Below the pieces are notes generated by a model. The model ran no database searches. It was not told where the DNA came from and was given only the letters and a program-made list of their open reading frames with translations. Position numbers and translations under genes: made by a program. Source: Clostridia bacterium (GTDB lineage: Bacteria; Bacillota; Clostridia; Christensenellales; Aristaeellaceae). Taken from it: a stretch of DNA of 42,966 nucleotides. How positions within the stretch are numbered: position 1 is the stretch's first letter; the number at the start of each line of letters is the position of its first letter. The stretch covers positions 1 to 42,966 of the forward strand of contig JAFWEL010000096.1 in the NCBI GenBank assembly GCA_017512905.1, in the 5' to 3' direction. This document shows positions 453 through 27,047 of the stretch, in pieces.

Positions 453-1274
453 TCACAACAGTCCCTCGATCACCGCCGCCACGCCGTCTTCGTCGTTGGT
501 GGCGGTGATTATGTCTGCCGCATGGCGGACTTCCTCGACGGCGTTTGCCATGGCCACGCCGACGCCGGCGGCGCGGATCATGGTGATGTCGTTGAGGCCG
601 TCCCCGAAGGCCATCACCTGTTCGCGCTCCAGGCCCAGGTGCGCTGCCAGACCCAGCAGGGCGTGGCCCTTGGTGGCGTCCGCGTGGTTGATTTCCACGT
701 TGCGCGGCACCGACGACGACAGGGCGATGTCGGGGAAGGGCATACCGGCCAGCAGGCGGCGCTGGGTCTCGTCGTCCCGGCAGAACGCCTGGATCTTCTG
801 GATATCGCGGCTCTGGTCCTGTATAAAAGACTTCAGCTCCGGCACGGGCGTTCGTATGGATTTCATGTAGTCCACGACGATGGGGCTCCATGCGTAGCGG
901 TCGATCTGCCGCCACATGGCCTCGTTCATATAGCCCTGCCCATCCATGTAGCAGTCGTAGATCACCGGCTGGCCGTCCAGCCAGGCCATGATCGCCAGGG
1001 CCTGGTTCAGCGGAATCTCGGCGCGACAGAGCAGGCTGTCATGGGCCACGTCGTACACCGCCGCGCCGTTTGACAGGATCGCGTATTTCAGGAAGGGCCA
1101 ATCGAGGACCGCCTGGGGCAGCCCCCGGAATATCCGGCCGGTGGCCGGCACGATGTCGATGCCGCTCTCGCTGGCCCGCCGAAGGGCATCCAGGTTCCGC
1201 GCCGACAGCCGCTTGTCGGTGGTCAGCAGCGTGCCGTCCAGGTCGAGGGCGATGAGCTTTATGTCTCTTGCCAT
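453..1274 (-). CDS. Cof-type HAD-superfamily phosphatase
   Basis: A 273-residue protein of the usual length for Cof/YidA-like HAD phosphatases, which remove phosphate from sugar phosphates, flavin or cofactor phosphates in the cytoplasm. Motif I is LDLDGTLL (residues 10-17), motif II lies in LSNGAAV, and motif III/IV is GDGLNDITMI near residue 223. A cap domain fills the middle. The start lies one base after the stop of the GH42 gene upstream, so the two are one transcript and probably coupled. Linkage suggests, without proof, that it dephosphorylates a sugar phosphate arising from galactoside use. Substrate cannot be read from sequence. Confidence 0.9.
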   Translation of the reverse strand: MARDIKLIALDLDGTLLTTDKRLSARNLDALRRASESGIDIVPATGRIFRGLPQAVLDWPFLKYAILSNGAAVYDVAHDSLLCRAEIPLNQALAIMAWLDGQPVIYDCYMDGQGYMNEAMWRQIDRYAWSPIVVDYMKSIRTPVPELKSFIQDQSRDIQKIQAFCRDDETQRRLLAGMPFPDIALSSSVPRNVEINHADATKGHALLGLAAHLGLEREQVMAFGDGLNDITMIRAAGVGVAMANAVEEVRHAADIITATNDEDGVAAVIEGLL

Positions 1275-1275
1275 A

Positions 1276-3285
1276 TCAGTTTTCTCCTTCCGGGCTGAGC
1301 CTGACGATCCTGAAGCCGTTGACCGGCAGCGTGGCCCGCTCGTTCGTCCTCTCTCCGGTGAGCAGGTCCCTGCCCGTGGGCAGCGAGACCTCCACCGGCG
1401 CGCCGGAAAAGTTCATCACAAAGGCGAGGTCGCCCCGCCGGGTCACTTGGACGCCCGCTGGCAGTTCCGGGATAATAGGCTTCACGCCGGCTTCGGGGAC
1501 GACAGTCCTGTAAAAGTCATCCAGATAGCAAGCCTCCGGACAGGTGGCGATGTAGTAGGCCCGGCCCTTGCCGAACCGGTTGACGGTGACGCAGGGCATG
1601 CCGGCGTAAAAATCCTCGGTATAGACCGCCAGCGTCTCCGCGCCTTCGGTGTGGATCAGGTCGCACAGGGCGTCGCAGGCATAGACCCGGCCCTCCGGGG
1701 TTTGCAGGCCGTTGTGCTCGTCGTCATACAGGGCGTCGGTCTCCTCTGCCCAAAGGCCCAGCACCTGGCGCAACGGGCCGGGGAAGCCGCCCAGGAAGCA
1801 CAGGTCGTCCTGGTCCACCCGGCCGGTGAAGCAGGTGCAGACCAGTATGCTACCGTTGCGCACATAATCCGCCAGCCGCTCGGCGACGCCGGGACGCAGC
1901 ATATACAGCATCGGCGCGGCGATCAGCCGGTATCTGCTGAAATCACAGGTCTCGTCGATGATGTCCAGGTCGACGCCCTGACGCTTCAACGCCCGATAGT
2001 GGGCCAGCACGGTTTTGTCGTGGCCCATGTCCCGGCGGGGCCCCTGGCAATCCTCCAGCGCCCATCGGTTCTCGGCGTCGAAGATGAGGGCCGCCCGGGC
2101 GTCGGGCATCGCGCCTACCACGTCCTTCAGCCTGGGCAGCAGCCCGCCCACCGCCTGGACATCCCGGAAGGTGCGGGTGTGCTCATGGCCCGCGTGGTCC
2201 ACCACCGCGCCGTGAAACTTTTCCGCCGCGCCGCGGCTCTTGCGCCACTGGAAGTATTGCACGGTGTCCGCGCCGTGGGCGATCGCCTGGAGGCTGGACA
2301 GCAGGTGCATGCCCGGCTTCTTCAGCTTGCACACCTCGTGCCAGTTCACCTGGGATGGCGTGGATTCCATCAGCGCGAAGGGCTTTTGCTTCAATGAGCG
2401 CATCCAGTCGTAGTTGAAGGCGGCGCTCAGCGCGACCTGTTCGCCGTCGCCGTGTCCCCACCTGGGGTAGCTGTCGAAGCTGGCGAAGTCCAGGACGTCG
2501 GCCAGCTCAAAGTAGTTCAGGCCGCCAAACATCTCCATCAGGTTGGTGGTGACGGGGAGGTCCGGGGTCAGCTGGCGCAGCGGCGCGATTTCGGCCTTGA
2601 TGAAATCGGCGGTCTGGTGGGTGACAAAGCGCCGCCAGGCCAGGTTCAGGCCGTGGATGGAGGTCTCGCCGATGGTCGTCGGGCTGTGCAGCTGACTCCA
2701 GTCGGTGTAGGTCTTGCTCCAGAAGCCGGTCCACCAGGCGCGGTTGAGGGCGTCCAGCGTGCTGTAGCGCGCCTTCAGGAACTGCCGAAAGGCCTCCTGG
2801 CACAGCTCGCAGTGGCATTCGCCGCTGTATTCGTTGGAGATGTGCCAGCCCACCACCGCGGGATGGCTGCCGAAGCGCTCGGCCAGGGCGCGGTTGATCC
2901 GCTGGACGAAGGAACGGTAGGCGGGGGAGGTGAAGCAGTGGTTGTGCCGGCCGCCGTGGAGGTTCCGCCCGCCGTCCGGCCGCACCCGCAGCACCTCCGG
3001 CCAGCGCTGGCTCATCCAGGCCGGCCGCGCGCCGCTGGGCGTGGCCAGAAAGACGGAGATGCCCGCCTCGTGCAGCTGGTCCAGCACGTCCTCCAGCCAG
3101 TCGAAGGTAAAACGCCCCTCCTCGGGCTCCAGCGCGGACCAGGCAAAGATGCCCACGCTCATCAAATTGCAGCCCGCCAGCTTCATCAGGCGGATGTCTT
3201 CTTCCAGTATGTCGGGCCGGTCCAGCCATTGGTCCGGGTTGTAATCGCCCCCGTGGCCGATAAACGGCAGCTTTAGTTCAGCCAT
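1276..3285 (-). CDS. GH42 beta-galactosidase
   Basis: A 669-residue cytoplasmic enzyme (no signal peptide) of full GH42 length, hydrolysing beta-galactosides. The acid/base glutamate is E152 in HISNEYSG and the nucleophile E307 in ALMESTPSQ. Cysteines 117, 157, 159 and 162 (CHCELC cluster) match the zinc site of metal-binding GH42 enzymes. The TIM barrel is followed by a trimerisation domain and a small C-terminal beta domain. AAGGAGAAG precedes the ATG. It is the first gene of a two-gene transcript with the HAD phosphatase, driven from a promoter at 3405-3432, with a palindromic repeat in the leader. The true substrate could also be a galactooligosaccharide or arabinoside. Confidence 0.93.
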   Translation of the reverse strand: MAELKLPFIGHGGDYNPDQWLDRPDILEEDIRLMKLAGCNLMSVGIFAWSALEPEEGRFTFDWLEDVLDQLHEAGISVFLATPSGARPAWMSQRWPEVLRVRPDGGRNLHGGRHNHCFTSPAYRSFVQRINRALAERFGSHPAVVGWHISNEYSGECHCELCQEAFRQFLKARYSTLDALNRAWWTGFWSKTYTDWSQLHSPTTIGETSIHGLNLAWRRFVTHQTADFIKAEIAPLRQLTPDLPVTTNLMEMFGGLNYFELADVLDFASFDSYPRWGHGDGEQVALSAAFNYDWMRSLKQKPFALMESTPSQVNWHEVCKLKKPGMHLLSSLQAIAHGADTVQYFQWRKSRGAAEKFHGAVVDHAGHEHTRTFRDVQAVGGLLPRLKDVVGAMPDARAALIFDAENRWALEDCQGPRRDMGHDKTVLAHYRALKRQGVDLDIIDETCDFSRYRLIAAPMLYMLRPGVAERLADYVRNGSILVCTCFTGRVDQDDLCFLGGFPGPLRQVLGLWAEETDALYDDEHNGLQTPEGRVYACDALCDLIHTEGAETLAVYTEDFYAGMPCVTVNRFGKGRAYYIATCPEACYLDDFYRTVVPEAGVKPIIPELPAGVQVTRRGDLAFVMNFSGAPVEVSLPTGRDLLTGERTNERATLPVNGFRIVRLSPEGEN

Positions 3286-3333
3286 GCTCCACTTCTCCTT
3301 TTAATTATGCGCGTATATGTAATTGTTTGACGT

Positions 3334-3378
3334 AGGCAAATTCTGATTTGTCGCGCTGCGACAAATCAGAATTTGCCT
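3334..3378. repeat. Palindromic repeat copy 2 (perfect 21-bp arms)
   Basis: Arms AGGCAAATTCTGATTTGTCGC and its exact complement flank the loop GCT. It lies in the leader of the GH42 gene, between its promoter and start codon. It is the cleanest short copy and defines the consensus used for other copies. Confidence 0.95.
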
Positions 3379-3404
3379 GCCCGAACAGCAATATCTCTAT
3401 TCAA

Positions 3405-3432
3405 ATTATATCAAAAAATGTCACAGGTTCAA
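3405..3432 (-). promoter_or_regulatory. Promoter of GH42-HAD transcript
   Basis: On the minus strand TTGAAC, 16 bases, TATAAT. It places the transcription start near 3398, giving a leader of about 110 bases that contains the palindrome at 3334-3378. Confidence 0.6.
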
Positions 3433-3450
3433 TGTTTTTTAATTCTTTAC

Positions 3451-3479
3451 TTGCCTTTTCCACAAAAATCGGGTAAAAT
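3451..3479 (+). promoter_or_regulatory. Promoter of cation diffusion facilitator
   Basis: TTGCCT, 17 bases, TAAAAT. Transcription would start near 3486, just before the structured leader, leaving about 120 untranslated bases before the ATG at 3606. Confidence 0.65.
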
Positions 3480-3485
3480 ATCCAT

Positions 3486-3577
3486 GAACAGGCCCATGGG
3501 AGCCGGGTCACGTGAGTGATAGCGGGTATAGGATCCGCGGGACAGTCGTACAATGACTTGCCCGCGGTCTTTTTGTA
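3486..3577 (+). promoter_or_regulatory. Structured leader with terminator; possible NiCo (czcD-type) riboswitch
   Basis: The leader holds small helices: GTCAC/GTGAT with a GTGA tetraloop, GCGG/CCGC, then GGGACAGTC. It ends in a terminator: CCGCGGG (3535-3541) pairs with CCCGCGG (3561-3567), followed by TCTTTTT. The terminator 5' arm overlaps GCGGGACAG. CAGGC and GGGACAG segments resemble conserved parts of the NiCo riboswitch, which controls metal exporters of this very family in Firmicutes. The terminator and its position are visible; the riboswitch class is inference from memory. Confidence 0.45.
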
Positions 3578-3605
3578 TATGTCGTGGGCTGAGGGAGGCA
3601 GTGTT

Positions 3606-4490
3606 ATGCAGAATCAATCCCAGCAGGCGCTTCGGGTCTCCGGGGTCAGCATCGTGGTCAACCTGCTGCTGTCGGCGGGCAAGCTGGCGGCAGGGCTGAT
3701 CGCCCATTCCGGAGCGATGGTCTCCGACGCAGTGCATTCCGCTTCGGATATATTCAGTACGCTCATCGTGATGGTCGGCCTTCGGCTGTCCGGCAAGGCC
3801 GCGGACCGGGAGCATCCCTATGGCCACGAGCGCATGGAATGTGTGGCCGCCATCGTGCTGGCGGGGGTGCTGATGGTCACGGGCCTGCTGATCGGCTACA
3901 AGGGTGCCCGGGAGATCTTGTCCGGGCAGGCGACCGACCGACCCGCGCCGGGTCTGCTGGCGCTGGTAGCGGCCATCGTCTCCATCGCCGTCAAGGAGGG
4001 CATGTTCTGGTACACCCGCGGCTATGCCCGGAGGCTGGCGTCCCCGGCGCTGATGGCCGACGCCTGGCATCACCGCTCTGACGCCCTCAGCTCGGTGGGC
4101 GCGCTGATCGGCATCGCCGGGGCGCGCCTCGGGGTGCCGATGATGGACCCCTTGGCCAGCGTGGTCATCTGTGCCTTCATCATTAAGGCCGCCTTCGACA
4201 TCTTCCGGGACGCCGTGGACCGCATGGTGGACCATAGCGGCGATCCCCAGACCGAGGGACAGATCCGGGAATGTGTCATGGCCCACGGCGGTGTGCGCCG
4301 CATCGACGTGCTGCGCACCCGGGAGTTCGGCAGCCGCTTGTACGTGGAGCTGGAAATCGCCCTGGACGACACGCTGACCCTCAGCGAGGCCCATTCCATC
4401 GCCGAAGGCGTACACGACGACGTGGAACGGGCCTTCCCCCAGGTCAAGCACATCATGATTCATGTCAATCCAGTGGGTGAAGCAGCGTGA
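3606..4490 (+). CDS. Cation diffusion facilitator (metal cation/H+ antiporter)
   Basis: A 294-residue membrane exporter for divalent metals (Zn, Co, Ni, Fe or Mn) of the usual CDF length. Six membrane segments are followed by a cytoplasmic ferredoxin-like domain. Metal-site motifs are HSASD (near residue 42) and HHRSD (near 157) in helices II and V, with HPYGHERME between. The C-terminal domain carries H and E residues ending IMIHVNP. I chose ATG 3606 because GGGAGG lies 7 bases upstream; a longer frame from 3516 would translate the leader and terminator. The preceding terminator-bearing leader suggests control by the exported metal. Confidence 0.92.
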   Translation: MQNQSQQALRVSGVSIVVNLLLSAGKLAAGLIAHSGAMVSDAVHSASDIFSTLIVMVGLRLSGKAADREHPYGHERMECVAAIVLAGVLMVTGLLIGYKGAREILSGQATDRPAPGLLALVAAIVSIAVKEGMFWYTRGYARRLASPALMADAWHHRSDALSSVGALIGIAGARLGVPMMDPLASVVICAFIIKAAFDIFRDAVDRMVDHSGDPQTEGQIRECVMAHGGVRRIDVLRTREFGSRLYVELEIALDDTLTLSEAHSIAEGVHDDVERAFPQVKHIMIHVNPVGEAA

Positions 4491-6630: not shown

Positions 6631-8505
6631 TTATACCTGGGCGGTGAACCTCAGGTCGATCTCCTTGACATAGCCCCGGTGGCCCTGCAGTTCGATCAGC
6701 GACCAGCCGTCGACGGTCTCGATGACGCTGACCTCCACCTCCTGCTTCAGCGAGCCCAACACCGCGCTGCTCTCGTCGGCGGAGGCGTAGACCGGCACCG
6801 CGTGGCCCTCGTGGGGACTGGTCAGCGCCGTTTCGGTGGTGTCGTCCTCGAAGACCCGGGCGGCGCTTTCAGGCGCGTCCTCCGTCTCGGCGGGCACCAG
6901 CTGGAAGCTGACGGCGTCGGTGGGAACGTAGCCCTGCATGCCCTCGTATTCAATGAAGGTCCATTCGCTGCTCCTGAGCAGCACCATGGCCTGTTCGCCC
7001 TGGGGGAAGGTACCCATCACCTCGCTGGAGGTTGACGGCGCGCTCTGGATGTCCAGGCCGGTTTCAGCGGTGGCCCGTTGACTGAGGTCCTCGTGCTCAT
7101 CCAGCGACCCGCCGCCCTCGATATAGGCGGTGAAGCGCTCGGCGGGGCTCTCGTTCAGGTCGGTGATGCCGATGGCATAGACGGTCTTGCCACCGTCCAC
7201 GGAATATTCCAGGGTGAGGGCGGTCTTGGACGTGAAATCCATGTAACGGTTCATCACATAGCCGGTCTCGCCGCCCTTCATCACCTTGGACCACTTGTCG
7301 CCCCGCTCTACGCCGATGACGGCGGTGCCGTCCTTCAGGCTGGTCAGCGCCTCGGATTCGGCGGAGGGCGCCTGCCTGAGCTTGATGCCCACCTCGCAGT
7401 CCACCGTGCCCAGGAAGCGCTCCCGCTCCGTGGGCGTCATGGTGTAGTCCGCCTCGTCCACGAACATGGCTTTGACGTGCTCCGATTCATAGTAGACGGC
7501 CTTCTGGACCATGGGGGTGGCGATGCCGTCGGCCTCGAAGCCGTAGGCGTCCTGGAAGGTGGTCACGGCCTCGGTGACGTCCACGTCGTAAACGCCGTCG
7601 ATGTTCCCGCCATACAGCTTCAGGGTCTGCAAATACCGCTGCAGGGCGCGCACGGCCGCGCCGCTGCTGCCGTGGCTGAGGGTGACGTTCATGGCGGAGG
7701 GGGCGGCGGGATCGGTGAGGGCGTCCTGGAATTCCAGGGTGGCCAGGCCGGTCTGCGCCATGCCCAGCAGGCCCTGGGCCTCACGGACGGCCCGCACGGT
7801 GGCCAGCGTGTATTCCTCGGTGATGGCCTCGTCATAGACACCCAGGCCCTGCAGCTTCATCTGAAGATCCCGCACCTCACTGCCGGTGCAGCCCCGGCCC
7901 AGCAGACCGGGCACGTCGGGCACGCCCAGGAACTGGCTGTAGGACTGGCCGCTGGAGGCGTGATAGGAGGACTGGTACAGCAGGTCCCGCAGCTCCTCGT
8001 CCCGCTCGTTGTCCTTGTGGATCTTCACCACCGTGCCCACGGGGCAGTTTTCGGCGATGAACCGGGCGTCCTCGGTGCGCATGCGGATGCAGCCGTGGGA
8101 GACCGGGTAGCCGTAATCCCGGACGGACTGTTCGTTGATAGCGGCCTCACTGGGGCGGTTGTAGAGCAGCGAGTGGAACATCACGTCGTAGTGGATCCGG
8201 CTGGCGTAACGGGCGTAGCCGCCGAAGGCCCGGAAGTGGAACCACTCCTCGCGCTCGCCGTCCCGCTCCTTGTCGGGCATTTTGAAGGTGCCCAGGGGCG
8301 TGGCGTCCTCAGCGCCCGAGGAGCAGAGCCCCTGCATCACGATGGCGCCGCCGTCACGGTTTTCATAGACGGTGACGATCTGGTTGACGATGTCCACGTC
8401 CACCCGGTAGGGGGACGCGATTTCGTCGGCCCGGGCAAAGGGGCCGATGGCGCTGATCAGGAGCGTCAAAACGATGCTGTAAAGCGCAAGTCGCCTTGCT
8501 TTCAT
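6631..8505 (-). CDS. Secreted L,D-transpeptidase (YkuD) with peptidoglycan-binding and SH3 domains
   Basis: A 624-residue exported protein that makes 3-3 peptidoglycan cross-links or attaches proteins to the wall. Residues 1-26 are a Sec signal ending ARA. The YkuD domain spans about 32-164, with catalytic C139 in SHGCIRM and H111 region motifs. Two peptidoglycan_binding_1 repeats follow (about 205-255 and 275-335), then three SH3-like repeats (about 365-425, 465-530, 555-622). Catalytic domain first and binding modules after is an unusual order and makes the protein long for the family. Start: AAGGAG lies 11 bases before ATG. It is transcribed alone, divergently from the deaminase-like gene. 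Confidence 0.92.
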   Translation of the reverse strand: MKARRLALYSIVLTLLISAIGPFARADEIASPYRVDVDIVNQIVTVYENRDGGAIVMQGLCSSGAEDATPLGTFKMPDKERDGEREEWFHFRAFGGYARYASRIHYDVMFHSLLYNRPSEAAINEQSVRDYGYPVSHGCIRMRTEDARFIAENCPVGTVVKIHKDNERDEELRDLLYQSSYHASSGQSYSQFLGVPDVPGLLGRGCTGSEVRDLQMKLQGLGVYDEAITEEYTLATVRAVREAQGLLGMAQTGLATLEFQDALTDPAAPSAMNVTLSHGSSGAAVRALQRYLQTLKLYGGNIDGVYDVDVTEAVTTFQDAYGFEADGIATPMVQKAVYYESEHVKAMFVDEADYTMTPTERERFLGTVDCEVGIKLRQAPSAESEALTSLKDGTAVIGVERGDKWSKVMKGGETGYVMNRYMDFTSKTALTLEYSVDGGKTVYAIGITDLNESPAERFTAYIEGGGSLDEHEDLSQRATAETGLDIQSAPSTSSEVMGTFPQGEQAMVLLRSSEWTFIEYEGMQGYVPTDAVSFQLVPAETEDAPESAARVFEDDTTETALTSPHEGHAVPVYASADESSAVLGSLKQEVEVSVIETVDGWSLIELQGHRGYVKEIDLRFTAQV

Positions 8506-8687: not shown

Positions 8688-11156
8688 GTGATCTTCTTTC
8701 AGCGCTTTTATCTGGACCGAGAGAAGGACATCGTGGTGGACCTGTACATGGAGGGCGAGCGCCTGCTTCACGTCATCCACACGCCCAACCACCACACGGG
8801 CAATCTGATCTCCAACCTGGCGCGGCTGTGCGCCCTTCAAACCAGCGAGGATGAAAACGGCCTGAAGGTGATCCGGGGAGAGGTGCCCTGCTATTACGAC
8901 GGCGACAACCGCCGGCTGTACATCTTGCGCCTGGGGAACACGAAGGTGGCCAACATCTGGCCCGACGGTCGGGTGGAGTTGAAGGCGTCGGTGCCCGCCA
9001 TCTCCAAGACGCTGATGAGCCAGACCAAGGATTACCGCCTGGGCATCGACAAGACCATCGTCAAGACCTACATCCCCAGCGACTGTAAGTTCCGCACCGA
9101 CCTGCACACCCACATGAACGGCAACCTGCCGCCGGACGTGCTGATCGCGCTGGCCATCGCCCATCAGATCCGATATCCCTACTATTACATCAAGAAGCTG
9201 GGGCTGAAATGCACGCCGGCGCAGATCGAAGGGCTGGAGGCGCGCCGCGTGGTCGCCGGGATGGCCCTGGGCGAGACGACGCTGACGGGACGCCACCGGG
9301 AGCGGCGCATCGACGACTACACCTTCATCAACTTTGCCGACCTGATCCTGGGCAACCCTGCCGACGCGGCCTTCAACATCGAGCGCGTCCGCAATTCGCT
9401 GACGATCCCCAAGGATGGCCAGGCGGTGTTCGCCAATCTGGAGAAGGTGTACCTGTACCGCTACGTGTTCACCAAGGGGGTGCGCTCCGACGCGCCCTTC
9501 AGCGGGCTCAATATCGACGGCATCCCTGACCGGGAGGTGGCGGGCTGTGCCGCGGCCATCCTCCGTGACCGGGAGGACGACCGCTACCGGGCCAACACCC
9601 TGTACCAGGACCTGCTGCTGTGGATCGCCCGGGAATACCAGCGCCGAGGCGTGGAATACGTAGAGATCACCGACACCGCGCTGCTGAACTGGGCGGACTT
9701 CCCGTCCAGGCTGCGCCAGATCCACGAGATCATGCCCGCCATCACCCGGGAGACGGGGGTGCTGATCCGCTTCCTGGCGGGCATTAGGCGCATCCCTCTG
9801 ACCATCGTGCGGGACCGGGTGACCCCCAACGACTACCTGCTGGAAAATATGCGCTGCCTGCGGGCCATCGCCGCTGACCCCTATGTGGCGGGCAGCGATA
9901 TCATCGGCGAGGAGATCAACGACATCCTCGAGCTGCGCAGCGTGATCCGGGAGCTGGTGGCCATCGCGGGAGAGCACCCGGGCTTCGTCATCCGCATCCA
10001 CGCCGGCGAAAACGACAGCCTGCGGGACAATGTGGCGAACAGCATCCGCTGCGTGGCCGAGGCGCTGGCTCCCGGCCAGGCCATGCCGCCGCTGCGGGTG
10101 GGCCATGGGCTGTACACCTGCGACCTGCGTGGCGCCAAGGGCCGGCGGCTGCTGGAGGATATGGTGAAATACGGGGTGACGCTGGAGTTTCAGATCACCT
10201 CAAATGTGCGGCTGAACAACCTGAGTCGGCTGGAGCGCCATCCCCTGCGGCAGTACCTGAAGGCGGGGGTGAGGTGTGTGCAGGGTACCGACGGCGGGGC
10301 GCTCTACGGCACGAACTCCATCGACGAGGAGCTGAGCCTGGAAAAGTTGCTGAGCCTGAGCCACGGCGAGCTGCTGGCCATGCGCCATGCCGAGGACGAC
10401 ATCCTGGCAGCCAGTCGCGCGACCTTTGCCGACCGGCTGGCCGCCTTCCGGCGGGACTGCCCCGGCCGGGACGTGGAGCTTTATTACCAGGAACAGCTGG
10501 AATCAGCGGGAGAGGCGTCCGGGGACCTGTGGCGGGGCTCCGACAAGCTGCCCGCCGAGCAGGCCCTCGCCGACCGGATCGCGCCGCTGCCGGAGGCCGG
10601 CTTTCCCATCGTGGTGGCGGGGGGCAGCTTCAACAACAGCCAGCACCGCACCGCCCTGCGCGCCGGGGACAGGGCCGTCATCGACGCGCTGCTGGCGCGG
10701 CTCGACCCCGGGAAGGTGTTCTTTGTGGTGGGCCATACCCTGACCGGCCAGGAGGGCTACCTCGCGCGACAGGCTGCGGGGCGCTTCAGGGTGTACGCCA
10801 TCGTGCCCACCATGGTCAGCCGGAGTGAGCTGAACCGCCTGAGGGCTTCCGGCGTGGCCGTGCGGATGTCCATCGAGAGCTCGGGTATGGGCCTCTACAA
10901 GAGCTTCGCCTATGAGATCTTCAAGCGGATGCCCTCAGCGCTGCTGGCCTTCGACGGCAATTCCGCGGCGCTGAACCTGATCCAGGAGGCCCGCAACGGC
11001 AGGCGCAAATGCCGCATTTATATCAATCCCAAGTCCCGGGGACTCGCCGCCAAGGCCAGACTGCTGGAGGGCTACGTCAGCCCCCTGGGGGACCCCGACG
11101 CGTTGATCGAAGCTGTGAACCGCTTCGCAGGGATCCATGATCCCGACGGAATGTAA
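8688..11156 (+). CDS. Adenosine/AMP-deaminase-like protein with SLOG-like C-terminal domain
   Basis: An 822-residue cytoplasmic protein. Residues 1-135 are a beta-rich N-terminal domain I do not recognise. Residues 136-600 carry deaminase marks: DLHTHMNG (H140, H142), RIHAGEN (H438, catalytic E441), VGHGLYT (H473), ITSNVRLNN, and GTDGGALYG (D535). The usual Asp-Asp pair is Asp-Gly here. This region is about 100 residues longer than standard adenosine deaminase. Residues 638-800 look like a SLOG/LOG nucleotide-binding Rossmann fold: IVVAGGSFNNSQ, FFVVGHTLTGQEG, IVPT, AFDGNSAALNLIQEA. GTG start with GGGGTGG upstream. It stands alone, convergent with PPK2. Family placement is inference; the role may be purine or modified-nucleotide processing or signalling. 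Confidence 0.8.
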   Translation: MIFFQRFYLDREKDIVVDLYMEGERLLHVIHTPNHHTGNLISNLARLCALQTSEDENGLKVIRGEVPCYYDGDNRRLYILRLGNTKVANIWPDGRVELKASVPAISKTLMSQTKDYRLGIDKTIVKTYIPSDCKFRTDLHTHMNGNLPPDVLIALAIAHQIRYPYYYIKKLGLKCTPAQIEGLEARRVVAGMALGETTLTGRHRERRIDDYTFINFADLILGNPADAAFNIERVRNSLTIPKDGQAVFANLEKVYLYRYVFTKGVRSDAPFSGLNIDGIPDREVAGCAAAILRDREDDRYRANTLYQDLLLWIAREYQRRGVEYVEITDTALLNWADFPSRLRQIHEIMPAITRETGVLIRFLAGIRRIPLTIVRDRVTPNDYLLENMRCLRAIAADPYVAGSDIIGEEINDILELRSVIRELVAIAGEHPGFVIRIHAGENDSLRDNVANSIRCVAEALAPGQAMPPLRVGHGLYTCDLRGAKGRRLLEDMVKYGVTLEFQITSNVRLNNLSRLERHPLRQYLKAGVRCVQGTDGGALYGTNSIDEELSLEKLLSLSHGELLAMRHAEDDILAASRATFADRLAAFRRDCPGRDVELYYQEQLESAGEASGDLWRGSDKLPAEQALADRIAPLPEAGFPIVVAGGSFNNSQHRTALRAGDRAVIDALLARLDPGKVFFVVGHTLTGQEGYLARQAAGRFRVYAIVPTMVSRSELNRLRASGVAVRMSIESSGMGLYKSFAYEIFKRMPSALLAFDGNSAALNLIQEARNGRRKCRIYINPKSRGLAAKARLLEGYVSPLGDPDALIEAVNRFAGIHDPDGM

Positions 11157-11334: not shown

Positions 11335-12825
11335 TCACTCCATAATCTGTTTGAACCGGTTGTCACACGCCTCCTCCAGCGCCTTGACGATGATGCTCAG
11401 CGTGCGGATGCGGGCGTATTTTTTATCGTTGGATTCGATGATGTGCCAGGGGGCGTTCCGGGTGCTGGTCTTTTGCAGCATCTCGTCCACCGCCAGCTCG
11501 TACTGGGGCCATTTTTCCCGGTTGCGCCAGTCCTCGTCGGTGATCTTCCACTGCTTTTCCGGGGTATTCTGGCGGTCGGTGAACCGGGCCAGCTGGGTCT
11601 CCTGGTCGATGTGGATCCAGAATTTCAGCACCACCGCGCCCCAGTCGGTGAGCATCCGCTCGAACTCGTTGATCTCGTTGTAGGCCCGCTTCCAGTCGTC
11701 TTCAGTGCAGAAGCCCTCCAGCCGCTCCACCATCACCCGGCCGTACCAGGTGCGGTCGAATATGGCGATGTGGCCGGTGCGGGGCAGCCGCGTCCAGAAG
11801 CGCCACAGGTACTGGCGGTTCAGCTCGTGGGGCAGCGGCGAGGCGATGGGGTGCACGTCAAAGCCCCGGGGGTCCAGCGGATAGGCCACCCGGCGGATGT
11901 TGCCGCCCTTGCCGGCGGCGTCCCAGCCCTCGTAGCACAGGATCACCGGGATCTTCTTGCGGTAGAGGATGTTGTGCAGCTCGCTCAGGCGGTTCTGGAG
12001 CTTCTTCAGCGTCTTCTTGTATTCGTCGTCGTCGATGGTGGGGGAGAGATCCACCTCGGCCAGCTTCGGCATCGGGATCAGCGGGAAATCGGCCTCGAAG
12101 GGCTCGCCCACATAGCGGCCCTGGGCCAGGCCCCGGTCGATGCGCCCTGCCAGCAGCTGCATGGCGTCCCGAACGGCCACCCTGCTGTGGCTGCCGTCCA
12201 GTATGTGCCAGGGAATGGTGTCGCCGGTCTTTTCCATGAAGCCGTCGTAGGCCTCCAGGAAGCGATTGTATTCCCGGTGCTGCCACAGGTCGTCGACGCT
12301 CACGCGCCACTCGGTCTCGGGGGCCTCCACCAGGCCCTGCAGCCGCCTGAACTGCTCCGCCTTGTCGATGTGCAAAAACAGCTTCAGTACCAGGTAGCCG
12401 CCGTCCCGCAGCTGGCGCTCAAATTCGTTGATCTGGCGCACCCGGTGCCGGTATTCCGCTTTGGTGATCTCGTGGCGCAGGAACTTCTGCACGGCGCAAT
12501 CCATCCAGCCGGAATCCAGGAAGGTGATCTTGCCGTTCATGGGGATGGCCTTCATGTACGGGTAGAGGAAGGGATAGCGGGCCTCGACCTCCGGGGTGAT
12601 CGCCGGGGAGACCACGCTGTAGAAGCGGGGGTCGATTTCGCTGATGAGCTCCTTGATCAGGCTGCCCTTGCCGGCGGCGGCCCAGCCCTCGATCAGCACG
12701 ATCACGGGCAGTTTGGCGTCCCGGAGCTGTTGCTGCTGGCCCAGCAGCTTTTCCCGCAGGGCCTTGATCTGTCGGTTGAGTTCCTTCTTGTCCTCCGGCG
12801 CGGCCGGAGCGTATTCCTTCAGCAT
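11335..12825 (-). CDS. Two-domain polyphosphate kinase 2 (polyphosphate:AMP phosphotransferase)
   Basis: A 496-residue cytoplasmic enzyme with two fused PPK2 domains, the layout of class II PPK2 (PAP), which makes ADP from AMP and polyphosphate. Domain 1 has the P-loop GWAAAGKGS near residue 47 and FLDSGWMD; domain 2 has EGWDAAGKGGNIRR near 305 and FDRTWYGRVMVER. Domain 2 keeps the canonical DRTWYGR lid and should be catalytic, while domain 1 has DSGWMD instead and is probably structural, as in known two-domain members. AGGAGG precedes the ATG. It follows the SDR gene by 35 bases and likely shares its transcript. It could help recycle AMP under starvation. Confidence 0.93.
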   Translation of the reverse strand: MLKEYAPAAPEDKKELNRQIKALREKLLGQQQQLRDAKLPVIVLIEGWAAAGKGSLIKELISEIDPRFYSVVSPAITPEVEARYPFLYPYMKAIPMNGKITFLDSGWMDCAVQKFLRHEITKAEYRHRVRQINEFERQLRDGGYLVLKLFLHIDKAEQFRRLQGLVEAPETEWRVSVDDLWQHREYNRFLEAYDGFMEKTGDTIPWHILDGSHSRVAVRDAMQLLAGRIDRGLAQGRYVGEPFEADFPLIPMPKLAEVDLSPTIDDDEYKKTLKKLQNRLSELHNILYRKKIPVILCYEGWDAAGKGGNIRRVAYPLDPRGFDVHPIASPLPHELNRQYLWRFWTRLPRTGHIAIFDRTWYGRVMVERLEGFCTEDDWKRAYNEINEFERMLTDWGAVVLKFWIHIDQETQLARFTDRQNTPEKQWKITDEDWRNREKWPQYELAVDEMLQKTSTRNAPWHIIESNDKKYARIRTLSIIVKALEEACDNRFKQIME

Positions 12826-12860: not shown

Positions 12861-13736
12861 TTACTTCAGCATCACCTGGCCGCCGGTGACGGGGATGGCC
12901 TGGCCGGTCTCGTACTTCTGCTCCACGCAGTAGAAGATGGCCTTGGCCACGTCCGCCGGGAAGCAGCCCCGGTTCATGGGCACCTTGGCCATGTAGTATT
13001 TGCGCACGTCCTCCACGGTCTTTGCCCCGGGCACCTTGCCGGCGTTCAGGTACTGCACGAACAGGCCCCGCTCCGGGTCAGACCACAGCGGGCCGTCCAG
13101 GTAATTGCCGGGGCAGATGGCGTTGACCTTGATGTTGTAGGGGCAAAGCTCCAGCGCGAAGCTCTGGGTCAGGCCGATGCCGCCGAACTTGGAGCCGGCG
13201 TAGGCGTAGTTGTTCTTGCTGCCCTCCAGGCCGGACTTGGAGTTGATGGTGATGATGTCGCCGAACCACTCCGCATCCGCCTCGTGTTCGGCCTCCATGA
13301 CGGCGGCGGCATACTTGGCGCACAGGAAGTAGCCGGTATAGTTGATATTGGTGACGAAGTCAAAGGATTTCTTTTCCAGCTCCAGCAGGTTGCCGGCCTT
13401 GGCCACGCCCGCGTTGCTGACCAGAATGTCCAGGCCGCCGAACTGCTCCACGGTCTTTTGCACCATCGCGGCGACGCTCTCCTCATCGGTCACGTTCACC
13501 TCTACGGCGGCGGCGTGCTCGCCCAGTGCGTCGGCTACGGCCTGGGCCCCGGGCAGGTTCATGTCCGCGATCACCACGGTCGCGCCCTCCCGGTGCATCT
13601 CCTCGGCGATGCCCTTGCCGAAGCCCTGGGCCGCGCCGGTCACGATGGCGATCTTCCCCGCCAGCCGTCCCTGGGTCGCCGGACGCTTGCCGATGTTTTC
13701 CTTCGCGATGGCGATCCACTTGCTCATGTCAACCAT
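12861..13736 (-). CDS. SDR-family NAD(P)-dependent oxidoreductase (sugar-phosphate/polyol dehydrogenase type)
   Basis: A 291-residue short-chain dehydrogenase. The cofactor motif is TGAAQGFGKG near residue 33, followed by NAG (SNAGVAKAG), catalytic S in INSKSG, and YAYAGSKFG (Tyr-x3-Lys). An extra 25-residue N-terminal helix (WIAIAKENIGKR) resembles sorbitol-6-phosphate dehydrogenase-like and rhamnulose-aldolase-fused SDRs. I chose the ATG at 13736 with AAAGGAT 9 bases upstream; an upstream frame extension of 27 residues has no ribosome site. The promoter is at 13817-13845, with a long inverted repeat beyond it. PPK2 follows in the same transcript. Substrate unknown. Confidence 0.88.
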   Translation of the reverse strand: MVDMSKWIAIAKENIGKRPATQGRLAGKIAIVTGAAQGFGKGIAEEMHREGATVVIADMNLPGAQAVADALGEHAAAVEVNVTDEESVAAMVQKTVEQFGGLDILVSNAGVAKAGNLLELEKKSFDFVTNINYTGYFLCAKYAAAVMEAEHEADAEWFGDIITINSKSGLEGSKNNYAYAGSKFGGIGLTQSFALELCPYNIKVNAICPGNYLDGPLWSDPERGLFVQYLNAGKVPGAKTVEDVRKYYMAKVPMNRGCFPADVAKAIFYCVEQKYETGQAIPVTGGQVMLK

Positions 13737-13816
13737 TTTAATCATCCTTTCATGTGCGTTTTGCTGTTTCACGGCGGTGCCCCGTCCAAGCCGGATCACC
13801 CACCGTTCCTGGTTCA

Positions 13817-13845
13817 ATTATAGCCAAATCTTCCCGGAAATGCAA
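13817..13845 (-). promoter_or_regulatory. Promoter of SDR-PPK2 transcript
   Basis: TTGCAT, 17 bases, TATAAT on the minus strand, about 80 bases before the ATG. Confidence 0.75.
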
Positions 13846-23518: not shown

Positions 23519-23591
23519 TTTGTAACGGGCGCCGGTGAGACGCTCGTTTTCAGATCAAACTGCTGCGTATCCAAACAAGGGAGGCGATCAT

Positions 23592-26500
23592 ATGCCCAAC
23601 TGGACCGACGAGCAGCTCCGGGCCATCGAGGCGCGGGGCGGCAACATCCTCCTCAGCGCGGCGGCGGGCTCCGGAAAGACCACCGTGCTGGTGGAGCGGG
23701 TGCTGCGGCTGATCGCCAACGACGGGGCCGACATCAGCCGGATGCTGGTGGTGACGTTCACCCGGGCCGCCGCGTCGGACATGCGCGCCAAGCTGTCCCG
23801 ACAGCTGGGGGAGCGGGCCGCGGCGGGGAACGCCCGCTGCCGGGAGCAGCTGCTGAAGCTGGACCAGGCCAACATCTCCACGCTCCACGCATTCTGCGCC
23901 GATTTCCTGCGCGTCAACTTTGAATCCGCCGGGGTGGACCCGGCTTTTCGCATATTGGACGATGCCATGGACACCCGCCTGCGGGACGAAGCCCTGGACG
24001 CCGCGCTGGAGGAAGCCTACGGCGCGGGGGGCGACGCGCTGCTGGCGCTGGATTACGGCAGGGGCCCCAAGGGTGTGCGGGCGGCGGCGGAGCTGCTTTT
24101 AAAGCGCATGGAGGACCGGCCCGACCCGGCGGCGTGGCTTGAACAGGCCGCCGAATGTTCCGACGCGGCCCTCTCCCTGTGGCAGGACGAGTTGAAGCGG
24201 GACGCCCGCCGGGCCATCCGCACGGCACTGGTCCACGTGCGCCACGCGCTGGCGCTGCTCGGCTGTCCGATGAATTACCAGGCGGCGATGCGCCTGGACG
24301 AGCAGGCCCTCACGGCCATGCTGGCCCTGGAGGATTACGACGAACTGTACCGGGCGCTGTCGGACTACAGGCAGGCCTCGGCCAGGGGCAAGAAGGATCC
24401 CAACGCCGACCCGGACGCCGTCGAGGCGGTGAAGCGCCTGCGGGAGGCGGCCAAAAAGGCGGTGGGGGACACGCGGTTGAAGGACCTGCCGCTGCTCCAG
24501 GCCCGGAAGGACGCCGTTGCCCTGGGCGGCGAGATCCGCACGCTGTCCGGCATCGCCCTGCGGGCCGCGGCCCTGTATGAAGAGGCCAAGGCCGGGCATT
24601 CCGGCCTGACCTACGCCGACCTGGAGCACCGGACGCTCCGGGCCTTGGCCGACCCGGCGGTGGCCGGGAGCATGCGCGAGCGCTACGACTATGTATTCGT
24701 GGACGAGTACCAGGACACCTCCGACATCCAGGAGGCCCTGGTCAGCGCCCTGTGCCGGGGGGACAACCGGTTCATGGTGGGGGATGTGAAGCAGTCCATC
24801 TACCGCTTCCGCCTGGCCGAGCCGGGGCTGTTCCTGGAAAAGTATGACGCCTATGGCCGGGGCGAGGGCGGCATGCTGCTGCCGCTGACCCGCAATTTCA
24901 GGTCCCGCCGGGGGATACTGGACTTCGTGAACATGGTTTTCGAGCGGGTGATGACCGGCGGCGACGCCGAGATCACCTATGACGCCATGGCGCGGCTGAA
25001 CCCGGGCCGGCCGGACGGGGACGACGGGGACGGACCGGACGTGGATATCCTGCTGCTGGACGCCGACGCTGAGCCGGACGCGCCGGAGGACGACGCTGTT
25101 TCGGCCCAGGGCATTGCCCGGCTCCAGGCCATGGAGCGGGAGGGCGTCGTCATCGCCCGGACCATCAAAAGCATGATGGCCGGGGACCCGAGCCTGCGCT
25201 ACCGGGACTTCGCCATACTGACCCGCAGCAAGGCCGCCGCCTTCTCGGCGATGATGCCGGTGATGCTGGCCCACGGCATCCCCGCCTTCGCCGACGGCCA
25301 GTCTGGCTATTATGAGTCGCTGGAGATCCGCTGGCTGCTGTCGATGCTGCGGCTGATCGAGAATGCCCGCCGGGACGTGGAGCTGATCGCCATGCTCCGC
25401 TCGCCGGTGGTGGGGCTGAGCGCCGACGCGCTGGCCCGCATTCGCATCGCCTACCGGACGGTGCCCTATGTGGACGCCGCCGCCGCCTACGCCAGGGACG
25501 TGGACGACGACATCGCCCGGAGGCTGTCGGTGTTCTTTGACCAAATGGACGGCTGGCGGCTGAAGGCGGGCAGCCTGGGGCTGGGCGAATTCGTGCGGCT
25601 GGTGCTGGACGAGAGCGGCTTTTATACCTATGCCGGAGCGCTGCCCGGCGGGGCCCAGCGACAGGCCAACCTGGACCAGTTCGTGGCCGGCGCCTGCGGC
25701 TTTGACAGCGAGTATTCCGGCTCGCTGACCCGCTTCCTGTTCTACACCGAGCACATGCGAAAACGCAGCGACGGCGACGCGGCCCACCTGTTGGGGGAGA
25801 ACGACAACGTGGTGCGGATGATGTCGGTGCACAAGAGCAAGGGCCTGGAATTCAAGGTGGTGTTCGGGGCACAGTTGGCGAAGACGTACCGCACGGAGCG
25901 CAGCGACGCGCCGTTGCTGACCCACCGGGACCTGGGCGTGGGCATGAGCTACTGCGACCCGGAACTGCGCACCCGGCGGCTGACGATGCCCCAGGCGGCC
26001 ATCATGGCCCGGCAGAAGCGGGAGGACGCCGCCGAGGAGATGCGGATACTCTACGTAATGCTCACCCGCGCCCAGCAGAAACTGGTGCTGGTGGGCACGG
26101 TGAAGGACGTGGAACGGGCGATGAAGCGCTGGCAGGCGCTGTCCGCCGCGCCGGTGGCCGCGGGCAGCCACCTGGACCTGATCATGGCGGCCCGCTGTGG
26201 CGCGGAGGCCGAGGACGCGCCACTGTGCTCCGAACTCAGGGTGATTCCGGCTGCCTCGGTCCGGCTTCAGGCAGAGGCGGTGGCCAACGACGGGAAGGCA
26301 CTGTTCGAACGGGTGATGGAAACCCCGGGGGACTACGCTGATTCCGATCTGGAGGCCCAACTGGCTTGGCGCTACCCGGACCCGCTGGCGGCAGACCGGC
26401 CTTTGAAGCTGACGGCCTCGGGCCTGCTTCGGGAGATCGAGGGGCCCGGCCAGCTGCCCGCGCTGGTGGAGCGCCCCGCGTTCCTCTCCGATGACGCCAG

Positions 26501-27047
26501 TCGCATGACCGGCGCGGAACGGGGCACGGCCTATCACCGCTGCATGCAGCTGCTGCGGCTGGACGCGCTGGAGAGCCTGTCCGGGGACGCGCTGACCGGC
26601 GCGGTGGCCCGGCAGCTGGACGACTGCGCCAACCGCCGGCTGCTGACGGACGGCCAGCGTCAGGCGGTGGAGCCCTGGCGGCTGTCCCGCTTCCTCGAGA
26701 GCGATGTGGGTAGGCGGCTGCGCGCGGCGGCACAGGTGCGAAAGGAGTGGCCCTTCAACGCCATGCTGCCCATCGACGAGGCCCTCGCGCCCCAGGAGGC
26801 CGGGCACTTTGGCTCCGGCGAGCTGCTGGTGCAGGGCACCATCGACTGCTGTTTCGTCGAGGACGGGGAATGGGTGCTACTGGACTACAAGACCGACCGC
26901 ACCGACGACATGGACGCCCTGCGCGCCCACTACGAAAAGCAGCTGGCGGTCTACGCCCTCGCCCTGGAGCGCATCACCGGCATGAAGGTCAAACAGCGCC
27001 TGCTATGCCTGCTGGAAAGCGGGGGAACGCTGGAGCTGGGCCTGTAA
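23592..27047 (+). CDS. addA: ATP-dependent helicase/nuclease subunit A
   Basis: A 1151-residue UvrD-type helicase with RecB-like nuclease, acting in double-strand break repair as the AddAB complex. Motifs in order: AAAGSGKTT (Walker A, about 23-31), TFTRAAASDMR (Ia), VFVDEYQDTSD (II, near 369), VGDVKQSIYRFR (III), SVHKSKGLEF (near 745), YVMLTRAQQKL (VI), and nuclease GTIDCCF...LLDYKTDR near 1080-1100. Length is close to the usual 1200. ATG 23592 has GGGAGG 8 bases upstream. AddB normally lies directly upstream but is absent here; only a small secreted protein and a glycosyltransferase precede it. Confidence 0.95.
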   Translation: MPNWTDEQLRAIEARGGNILLSAAAGSGKTTVLVERVLRLIANDGADISRMLVVTFTRAAASDMRAKLSRQLGERAAAGNARCREQLLKLDQANISTLHAFCADFLRVNFESAGVDPAFRILDDAMDTRLRDEALDAALEEAYGAGGDALLALDYGRGPKGVRAAAELLLKRMEDRPDPAAWLEQAAECSDAALSLWQDELKRDARRAIRTALVHVRHALALLGCPMNYQAAMRLDEQALTAMLALEDYDELYRALSDYRQASARGKKDPNADPDAVEAVKRLREAAKKAVGDTRLKDLPLLQARKDAVALGGEIRTLSGIALRAAALYEEAKAGHSGLTYADLEHRTLRALADPAVAGSMRERYDYVFVDEYQDTSDIQEALVSALCRGDNRFMVGDVKQSIYRFRLAEPGLFLEKYDAYGRGEGGMLLPLTRNFRSRRGILDFVNMVFERVMTGGDAEITYDAMARLNPGRPDGDDGDGPDVDILLLDADAEPDAPEDDAVSAQGIARLQAMEREGVVIARTIKSMMAGDPSLRYRDFAILTRSKAAAFSAMMPVMLAHGIPAFADGQSGYYESLEIRWLLSMLRLIENARRDVELIAMLRSPVVGLSADALARIRIAYRTVPYVDAAAAYARDVDDDIARRLSVFFDQMDGWRLKAGSLGLGEFVRLVLDESGFYTYAGALPGGAQRQANLDQFVAGACGFDSEYSGSLTRFLFYTEHMRKRSDGDAAHLLGENDNVVRMMSVHKSKGLEFKVVFGAQLAKTYRTERSDAPLLTHRDLGVGMSYCDPELRTRRLTMPQAAIMARQKREDAAEEMRILYVMLTRAQQKLVLVGTVKDVERAMKRWQALSAAPVAAGSHLDLIMAARCGAEAEDAPLCSELRVIPAASVRLQAEAVANDGKALFERVMETPGDYADSDLEAQLAWRYPDPLAADRPLKLTASGLLREIEGPGQLPALVERPAFLSDDASRMTGAERGTAYHRCMQLLRLDALESLSGDALTGAVARQLDDCANRRLLTDGQRQAVEPWRLSRFLESDVGRRLRAAAQVRKEWPFNAMLPIDEALAPQEAGHFGSGELLVQGTIDCCFVEDGEWVLLDYKTDRTDDMDALRAHYEKQLAVYALALERITGMKVKQRLLCLLESGGTLELGL

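Follow-up and report, generated by a model that had tools for sequence, protein, structure and literature searches.

In the literature examined, the enzymes of the adenosine deaminase (ADA) fold that attack the ATP pool are RdrB of RADAR and Cad1 (Cad1/CAAD), and both work together with other genes, namely RdrA in the former case and a type III CRISPR complex in the latter, where the deaminase is fused to an N-terminal CARF domain. RdrB converts ATP and dATP to ITP and dITP (PMC9994260). Cad1 departs from ADA at both substrate-pocket positions, which are occupied by Gly and Asn, and both residues contact ATP (PMC12669630). Restoring the canonical residue pair in Cad1 raised its activity on adenosine yet did not restore it, and the two residues are therefore not its sole determinants; the same report, citing earlier work, states that the change of Asp296 to Asn severely impairs mouse ADA (PMC12669630). 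SLOG domains, which serve as nucleotide sensors in ThsA of Thoeris, span enzymes to apparently non-catalytic sensors (PMC9503650), and those of the YpsA type contain a GxD/E motif (PMC6459960).

Here we describe ADA-SLOG, an uncharacterised protein of gut bacteria in which a deaminase with altered substrate contacts is joined to a probable nucleotide sensor, a fusion that suggests a single-gene switch altering intracellular adenine nucleotides. The gene lies in a window of 42,966 nucleotides, the whole stretch of DNA analysed, which corresponds to contig C133 of a draft genome of 3.53 Mb in 209 contigs (G000). Its coordinates and those of its domains, motifs and flanking genes are collected in Table 1.

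Table 1. The ADA-SLOG gene, its parts and its flanking genes in the window.
Feature	Position	Strand	Basis or conservation
Whole gene, ADA-SLOG-like protein	8688..11156	+	ORF, 822 aa, GTG start; conserved among relatives
N-terminal domain, residues about 1-130	8688..9077	+	no Pfam match in this region
Adenosine-deaminase domain, residues about 131-570	9078..10397	+	PF00962 9e-13; PDB adenosine deaminases
H140-x-H142 metal ligands and N144 at the mouse Asp19 position	9105..9119	+	H, H in 106/106; N 89, S 14, A 3
H438-A-G-E441, metal ligand and catalytic Glu	9999..10010	+	106/106
H473, mouse His238 equivalent	10104..10106	+	106/106
D535-G536, metal-ligand Asp kept, second Asp replaced by Gly	10290..10295	+	D 106/106, G 106/106
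C-terminal Rossmann-like domain, probably SLOG, residues about 635-800	10590..11087	+	sequence comparison
G682-H683 to E689, loop after strand 2	10731..10754	+	E689 invariant in A1 and A2
D756-G757-N758 loop	10953..10961	+	invariant in A2; inferred site of LOG PGGxGTxxE
L,D-transpeptidase gene, flanking	6631-8505	-	YkuD, peptidoglycan-binding and SH3 domains (Pfam)
PPK2-type kinase gene, flanking	11335-12825	-	recognised from sequence, not by profile

The start of the gene is shared by five relatives (upstream codons of reverse-strand loci being left aside), with GTG in L003 and ATG in L007, L010, L011 and L016 at the position of the GTG in the window. Over 818 codons, the gene and its counterpart in G018 differ at 69, 65 and 222 sites in codon positions 1, 2 and 3, respectively, corresponding to 196 synonymous and 99 non-synonymous codons. 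The common start and the concentration of changes at third positions show that the gene is real and that purifying selection acts on it. The three-domain architecture proposed in the preliminary description (an N-terminal domain, a deaminase and a Rossmann-like C-terminus) is conserved among the relatives and agrees with the profile searches: Pfam A_deaminase (PF00962) matched the 822-aa protein at 48.4 bits, above its curated cut-off of 27, and a PDB search with the A2 profile returned adenosine deaminases, the best at 6.2e-10. The N-terminal domain belongs to no known family by Pfam search and is conserved about as strongly as the ADA domain, with mean column conservation of 0.793 and 0.768, respectively, compared to 0.672 for the C-terminal domain.

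The active site was analysed in 106 distinct members, obtained from 134 loci with BLAST scores above 150 bits after removal of duplicates, alongside 22 other ADA-family proteins (of 23; L150, a copy of L164, was dropped) and one RdrB-like protein. The full H-x-H, H, E, H, D catalytic set of PF00962 is present in every member, a conservation that identifies the ADA domain as a zinc hydrolase in which no metal ligand is missing and the catalytic Glu is retained. The replacement of the usual Asp-Asp by Asp-Gly at 535-536, first noticed in the window protein, proved to be a property of the family, with Gly in all 106 members; the equivalent of position 536 in the 22 other ADA proteins is Asn in 14, Asp in 8 and Gly in none. 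At the position of mouse Asp19, D or E is found in 19 of those 22, and N, S or A in all family members. Thus, no member combines an acidic residue at Asp19 with Asp or Asn at Asp296, the signature of a canonical nucleoside deaminase. In the RdrB-like protein, encoded by a sister genome, Asn occupies the Asp19 position and Asp-Asp is kept. Because both positions differ from ADA and contact ATP in Cad1, a phosphorylated adenine nucleotide is, by analogy, the likely substrate. Since Asn stands at the Asp296 position in 14 of the 22 other ADA proteins, a substitution at this site is not by itself a marker of nucleotide use.

Distant relatives with the same domain order are encoded by ORFs of 783-1006 aa in genome G380 (protein P0002) and three genomes of its family, a scan of which matched 5 of 147, one of the five via a short ADA only. 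A2 aligned with P0002 over 683 columns, pairing residues 6-812 with 3-737 at 27% identity (E 2.6e-44); the N-terminal domains on their own gave a weak match (7% probability, E 0.0048). This whole-length homology indicates that the architecture is old and not a recent fusion. One distant relative, the 1006-aa ORF at 895-3912 of locus L144, has about 200 aa extra C-terminal to the SLOG-like domain, and another, at 3686-6373 of L165 (G1309), begins 16 bases past a gene at 3167-3670 whose product resembles ribosomal protein L9 by eye.

The same relatives provide the link between the C-terminus and SLOG. No SLOG profile of Pfam matched the 822-aa protein or the 15 members of alignment A1, the C-terminal consensus of the own family matched nothing in Pfam, and no SLOG chain was retrieved from the PDB when C-terminal sequences served as queries. 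Among the four distant relatives, two matched LSDAT_prok (0.0069 and 0.0026), one matched LSDAT_euk (0.038) and another matched neither profile; taken one by one, these values are close to those that unrelated hits reached in the scans. The consensus of their C-termini matched LSDAT_prok (PF18171, “SLOG in TRPM, prokaryote”) at 1e-4 and 22.1 bits, under the cut-off of 25.4, across profile positions 13-161 of 195, and the C-terminal domain of the window protein in turn aligned with the C-termini of the distant relatives (hhalign, 89% probability, E 2e-6). A scan of 196 genomes of the class with PF18171 gave one match, under the cut-off and in another protein. The SLOG-like C-terminus of the preliminary description is thus sustained through the distant relatives and not by any direct match, and we consider the domain a probable SLOG fold on sequence grounds. 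Relative to the SLOGs of the TRPM type and of ThsA, the own clade differs in its glycine loop, which reads GH instead of GG. E689 in this loop, which is absent from the most distant relative (L146), may correspond to the GxD/E motif seen in SLOGs of the YpsA type. LOG phosphoribohydrolases (PF03641) are similar in that the strand-helix alternation of the C-terminal domain resembles their beta-alpha order in a crude propensity plot, but a profile comparison with LOG proteins of the same genus, whose set contained one faulty entry, the spurious frame L172, that was taken out only before the plot, yielded no match, and the window protein has FDGNSAA at the inferred place of the PGGxGTxxE motif, which it lacks.

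ADA-SLOG is patchily distributed. In a sample of 100 relatives, own genome included, 16 carry the protein: apart from the source genome, 10 of 27 genomes of the genus, 5 of 32 from elsewhere in the family and none of 40 from elsewhere in the order. Near-full-length copies were found in 11 of 396, 11 of 391 and 2 of 398 genomes in even samples of the order, class and phylum, respectively, the own genome being part of every count and some genomes appearing in more than one sample; apart from the distant relative in G380, the remaining matches there are partial and fall in the ADA region of frames that are shorter (324-433 aa). In a named genome collection, 423 of 440 pattern-matched stretches encode relatives, the best 80 of which were taken further and, judging by their titles, are mostly uncultured Clostridia-type drafts, many from ruminant guts. 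Scans of phage, plasmid and viral-contig collections gave no ADA-SLOG match, the viral ones proceeding via short peptide patterns that reach close relatives best. PF00962 is absent from 15 of the 28 genus genomes; together with the occurrence in 10 of 27, this indicates that the gene is dispensable. The carriers in the genus have no second PF00962 match. TIR proteins show no association, being present in 7 of 11 carriers and 11 of 17 non-carriers.

Two genus non-carriers have one PF00962 match each. The first, G027, a sister genome without the ADA-SLOG gene, encodes an RdrB-like RADAR deaminase at 3716-6670 of L163 (G027:C14; PADLOC RdrB, 6.9e-27); the adjoining gene product of 749 aa has no PADLOC match, so that the RdrA of this locus is missing, divergent or elsewhere. 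The second has, at 101-1819 of L164 (G007:C104), an ORF of 572 aa for an ADA-like protein that, judged by eye, seems to carry a signal peptide.

A tree of 37 proteins clusters them by bacterial family with 4 changes, the minimum possible; support for f1 and for f58 as single groups is weak in this tree. Inside f1, genera g1 and g26 do not form single groups, pointing to possible exchange or old paralogy within that family.

The neighbourhood was surveyed in 81 loci, comprising the window and the best 80 of the 423 relatives, using genes called by a custom codon score, some calls of which may be wrong; 133 of 147 adjacent genes were analysed, the 14 longer than 700 aa being left out. No conserved partner emerged among the 133 genes or the 81 loci, in agreement with the proposal that ADA-SLOG acts as a single gene. 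The widest neighbour cluster, ABC-transporter-like by eye, occurs in 20 of 81 loci, followed by clusters in 11 and 7, and the commonest Pfam family occurs 5 times (at 1e-5). Eight PADLOC families were matched at 1e-10, each by at most 2 genes, and RdrA is absent from these eight, the two flanking genes of the window being included in the set. The absence of an RdrA-type ATPase alongside, noted at the outset, is therefore borne out, the genes on either side encoding an L,D-transpeptidase and a PPK2-type kinase. No purine-gene neighbourhood is apparent in the 25 Pfam families most frequent among the adjacent genes. Upstream, the closest gene shares the strand of ADA-SLOG in 53 of 74 loci and lies no more than 60 bases away in 24; for the closest downstream gene the counts are 43 of 73 and 8, respectively, so some copies may be co-read with a neighbour, though not a constant one. 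In two loci (L026 and L033, 12449-12886), a small gene encoding an HD-domain protein, RelA/SpoT-hydrolase-like by eye, follows ADA-SLOG.

The locus itself is common to the window and the two closest carriers, G018 and G008. In these two, PPK2 has no match between the flanking genes; in the window it is present between ADA-SLOG and the next gene. PPK2 as a linked partner was rejected, as it is full-length in only 8 of 28 genus genomes. The product of the downstream gene at 12861-13817 is about 97% identical in G018 and G008, compared to 71-88% for other genes of the locus, which may reflect strong conservation or a recent transfer. The adjoining L,D-transpeptidase gene is present in G009 and G010, which show no ADA-SLOG match; the rest of the stretch does not match the window, and neither a clean empty site nor a mobile element is readable from them. 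The window contains no CRISPR-type repeat array. A PADLOC scan of its 29 ORFs matched 54 models, and the 25 models listed are helicase or helicase-like with one ORF each, which we take to come from the UvrD-like gene at 23535-27047.

Among the closest described proteins, Cad1/CAAD resembles ADA-SLOG in its logic: a sensor of Rossmann type is fused to the ADA domain, neither aspartate of the substrate pocket is kept, and the substrate is probably a nucleotide; it differs in that its sensor is an N-terminal CARF linked to type III CRISPR, whereas the candidate sensor here is C-terminal and SLOG-like. The PADLOC model CARF_ADA (PDLC01908) was the only one to hit the 822-aa protein at E values up to 10, aligning residues 313-543 with positions 339-548 of 605, that is, with the later part of the profile and without the CARF. 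The same model matches the signal-peptide ADA-like protein L164 (3.5e-23) and is therefore not specific for Cad1; membership in Cad1, for which this hit to the ADA part was the candidate evidence, was rejected. RdrB is likewise an enlarged ADA-fold protein with Asn at the Asp19 position, but the RdrB-like protein examined keeps Asp-Asp where the window family has Asp-Gly. The RdrB model of PADLOC matched neither the window protein nor 45 family members, and, with no RdrA among the adjacent-gene matches, membership in RADAR was also rejected. Canonical adenosine deaminases (PF00962) share the family, zinc ligands and catalytic Glu, whereas ADA-SLOG has two pocket changes, two extra domains and 822 aa as opposed to 326-376 aa, the length of most PDB chains matched.

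The explanation that we favour, at an even level of credence, is a stand-alone, SLOG-gated adenine-nucleotide deaminase that resembles Cad1 in logic and not in membership. Without the acidic residue that grips the ribose hydroxyls of adenosine, and with Gly in place of Asp beside the metal-ligand Asp, the pocket would be likely to take a 5'-phosphorylated adenine nucleotide as substrate; by analogy with Cad1 and RdrB, ATP, dATP, AMP or a modified form would be converted to the inosine form. The C-terminal domain, probably a SLOG without the LOG hydrolase motif, would bind a nucleotide ligand, of the NAD/ADP-ribose type or other, and might thereby turn deaminase activity on or off. In this way, the adenine-nucleotide pool would be altered in a controlled manner under stress, phage infection possibly being one such condition. 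The retained catalytic residues, the class-specific substitutions in 106 of 106 members, the parallel with Cad1, the old architecture and the lack of a conserved partner all speak for such a deaminase. Against it, the link to SLOG passes through four distant relatives, one of which has no match, the RdrB-like protein keeps Asp at the Asp296 position, and there is no association with TIR proteins.

The strongest rival, which we nevertheless judge unlikely, is an accessory enzyme of purine metabolism, namely a constitutive deaminase of AMP or of damaged or modified adenine nucleotides, in which the Rossmann domain would be an allosteric or a second catalytic (base-releasing) module with no immune function. 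The clustering of the gene tree by family with the minimum of changes (f1 and f58 weakly supported), the ordinary neighbours, the lack of phage, plasmid and viral-contig matches and the lack of another PF00962 match in genus carriers are in its favour, but the patchy occurrence marks the gene as dispensable, PGGxGTxxE is absent and the commonest adjacent Pfam families hold no purine genes.

A defence role is possible. In its specific form, a RADAR/Cad1-type effector against phages, encoded by one gene, that would sense an infection-linked nucleotide, deaminate ATP or dATP and stop growth, it is a special case of the favoured explanation, with which its probability overlaps, and we rate it slightly below the purine-metabolism enzyme. 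It belongs to the same enzyme class as Cad1 and RdrB, whose pockets are changed at both positions and at one, respectively, and the sensor-effector architecture, patchy distribution and scattering of g1 and g26 within f1, itself compatible with exchange inside that family, are consistent with this role. However, the eight PADLOC models, each in at most 2 of 133 adjacent genes, do not make a defence neighbourhood, the tree needs no transfer between bacterial families, and phages, plasmids and viral contigs gave no match, which together argue mildly against a mobile defence gene. Finally, an inactive ADA fold serving as a nucleotide-binding sensor or scaffold, in line with the Gly at the Asp296 equivalent, where Asn severely impairs mouse ADA (cited in PMC12669630), is improbable given metal ligands and a catalytic Glu that are invariant in 106 of 106 members and needless in a dead enzyme.

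As the preliminary description anticipated, we found no description of this protein in the open-licence literature, and ADA-SLOG is a real and widespread deaminase-sensor family that has apparently gone undescribed. More tentatively, it may be a new one-gene effector family, gated by SLOG and not by CARF, whose ATP/dATP deamination would be turned on by a nucleotide signal resembling ADP-ribose or of another kind, and which would have evolved the strategy of Cad1 and RADAR independently and with no partner gene. If the favoured explanation is true, a large family that unites deaminase and sensor in a single polypeptide, recognisable by a diagnostic pocket change, would represent a third solution next to RADAR and Cad1, and one simple to assay, with one gene, one purified protein and a set of nucleotides.
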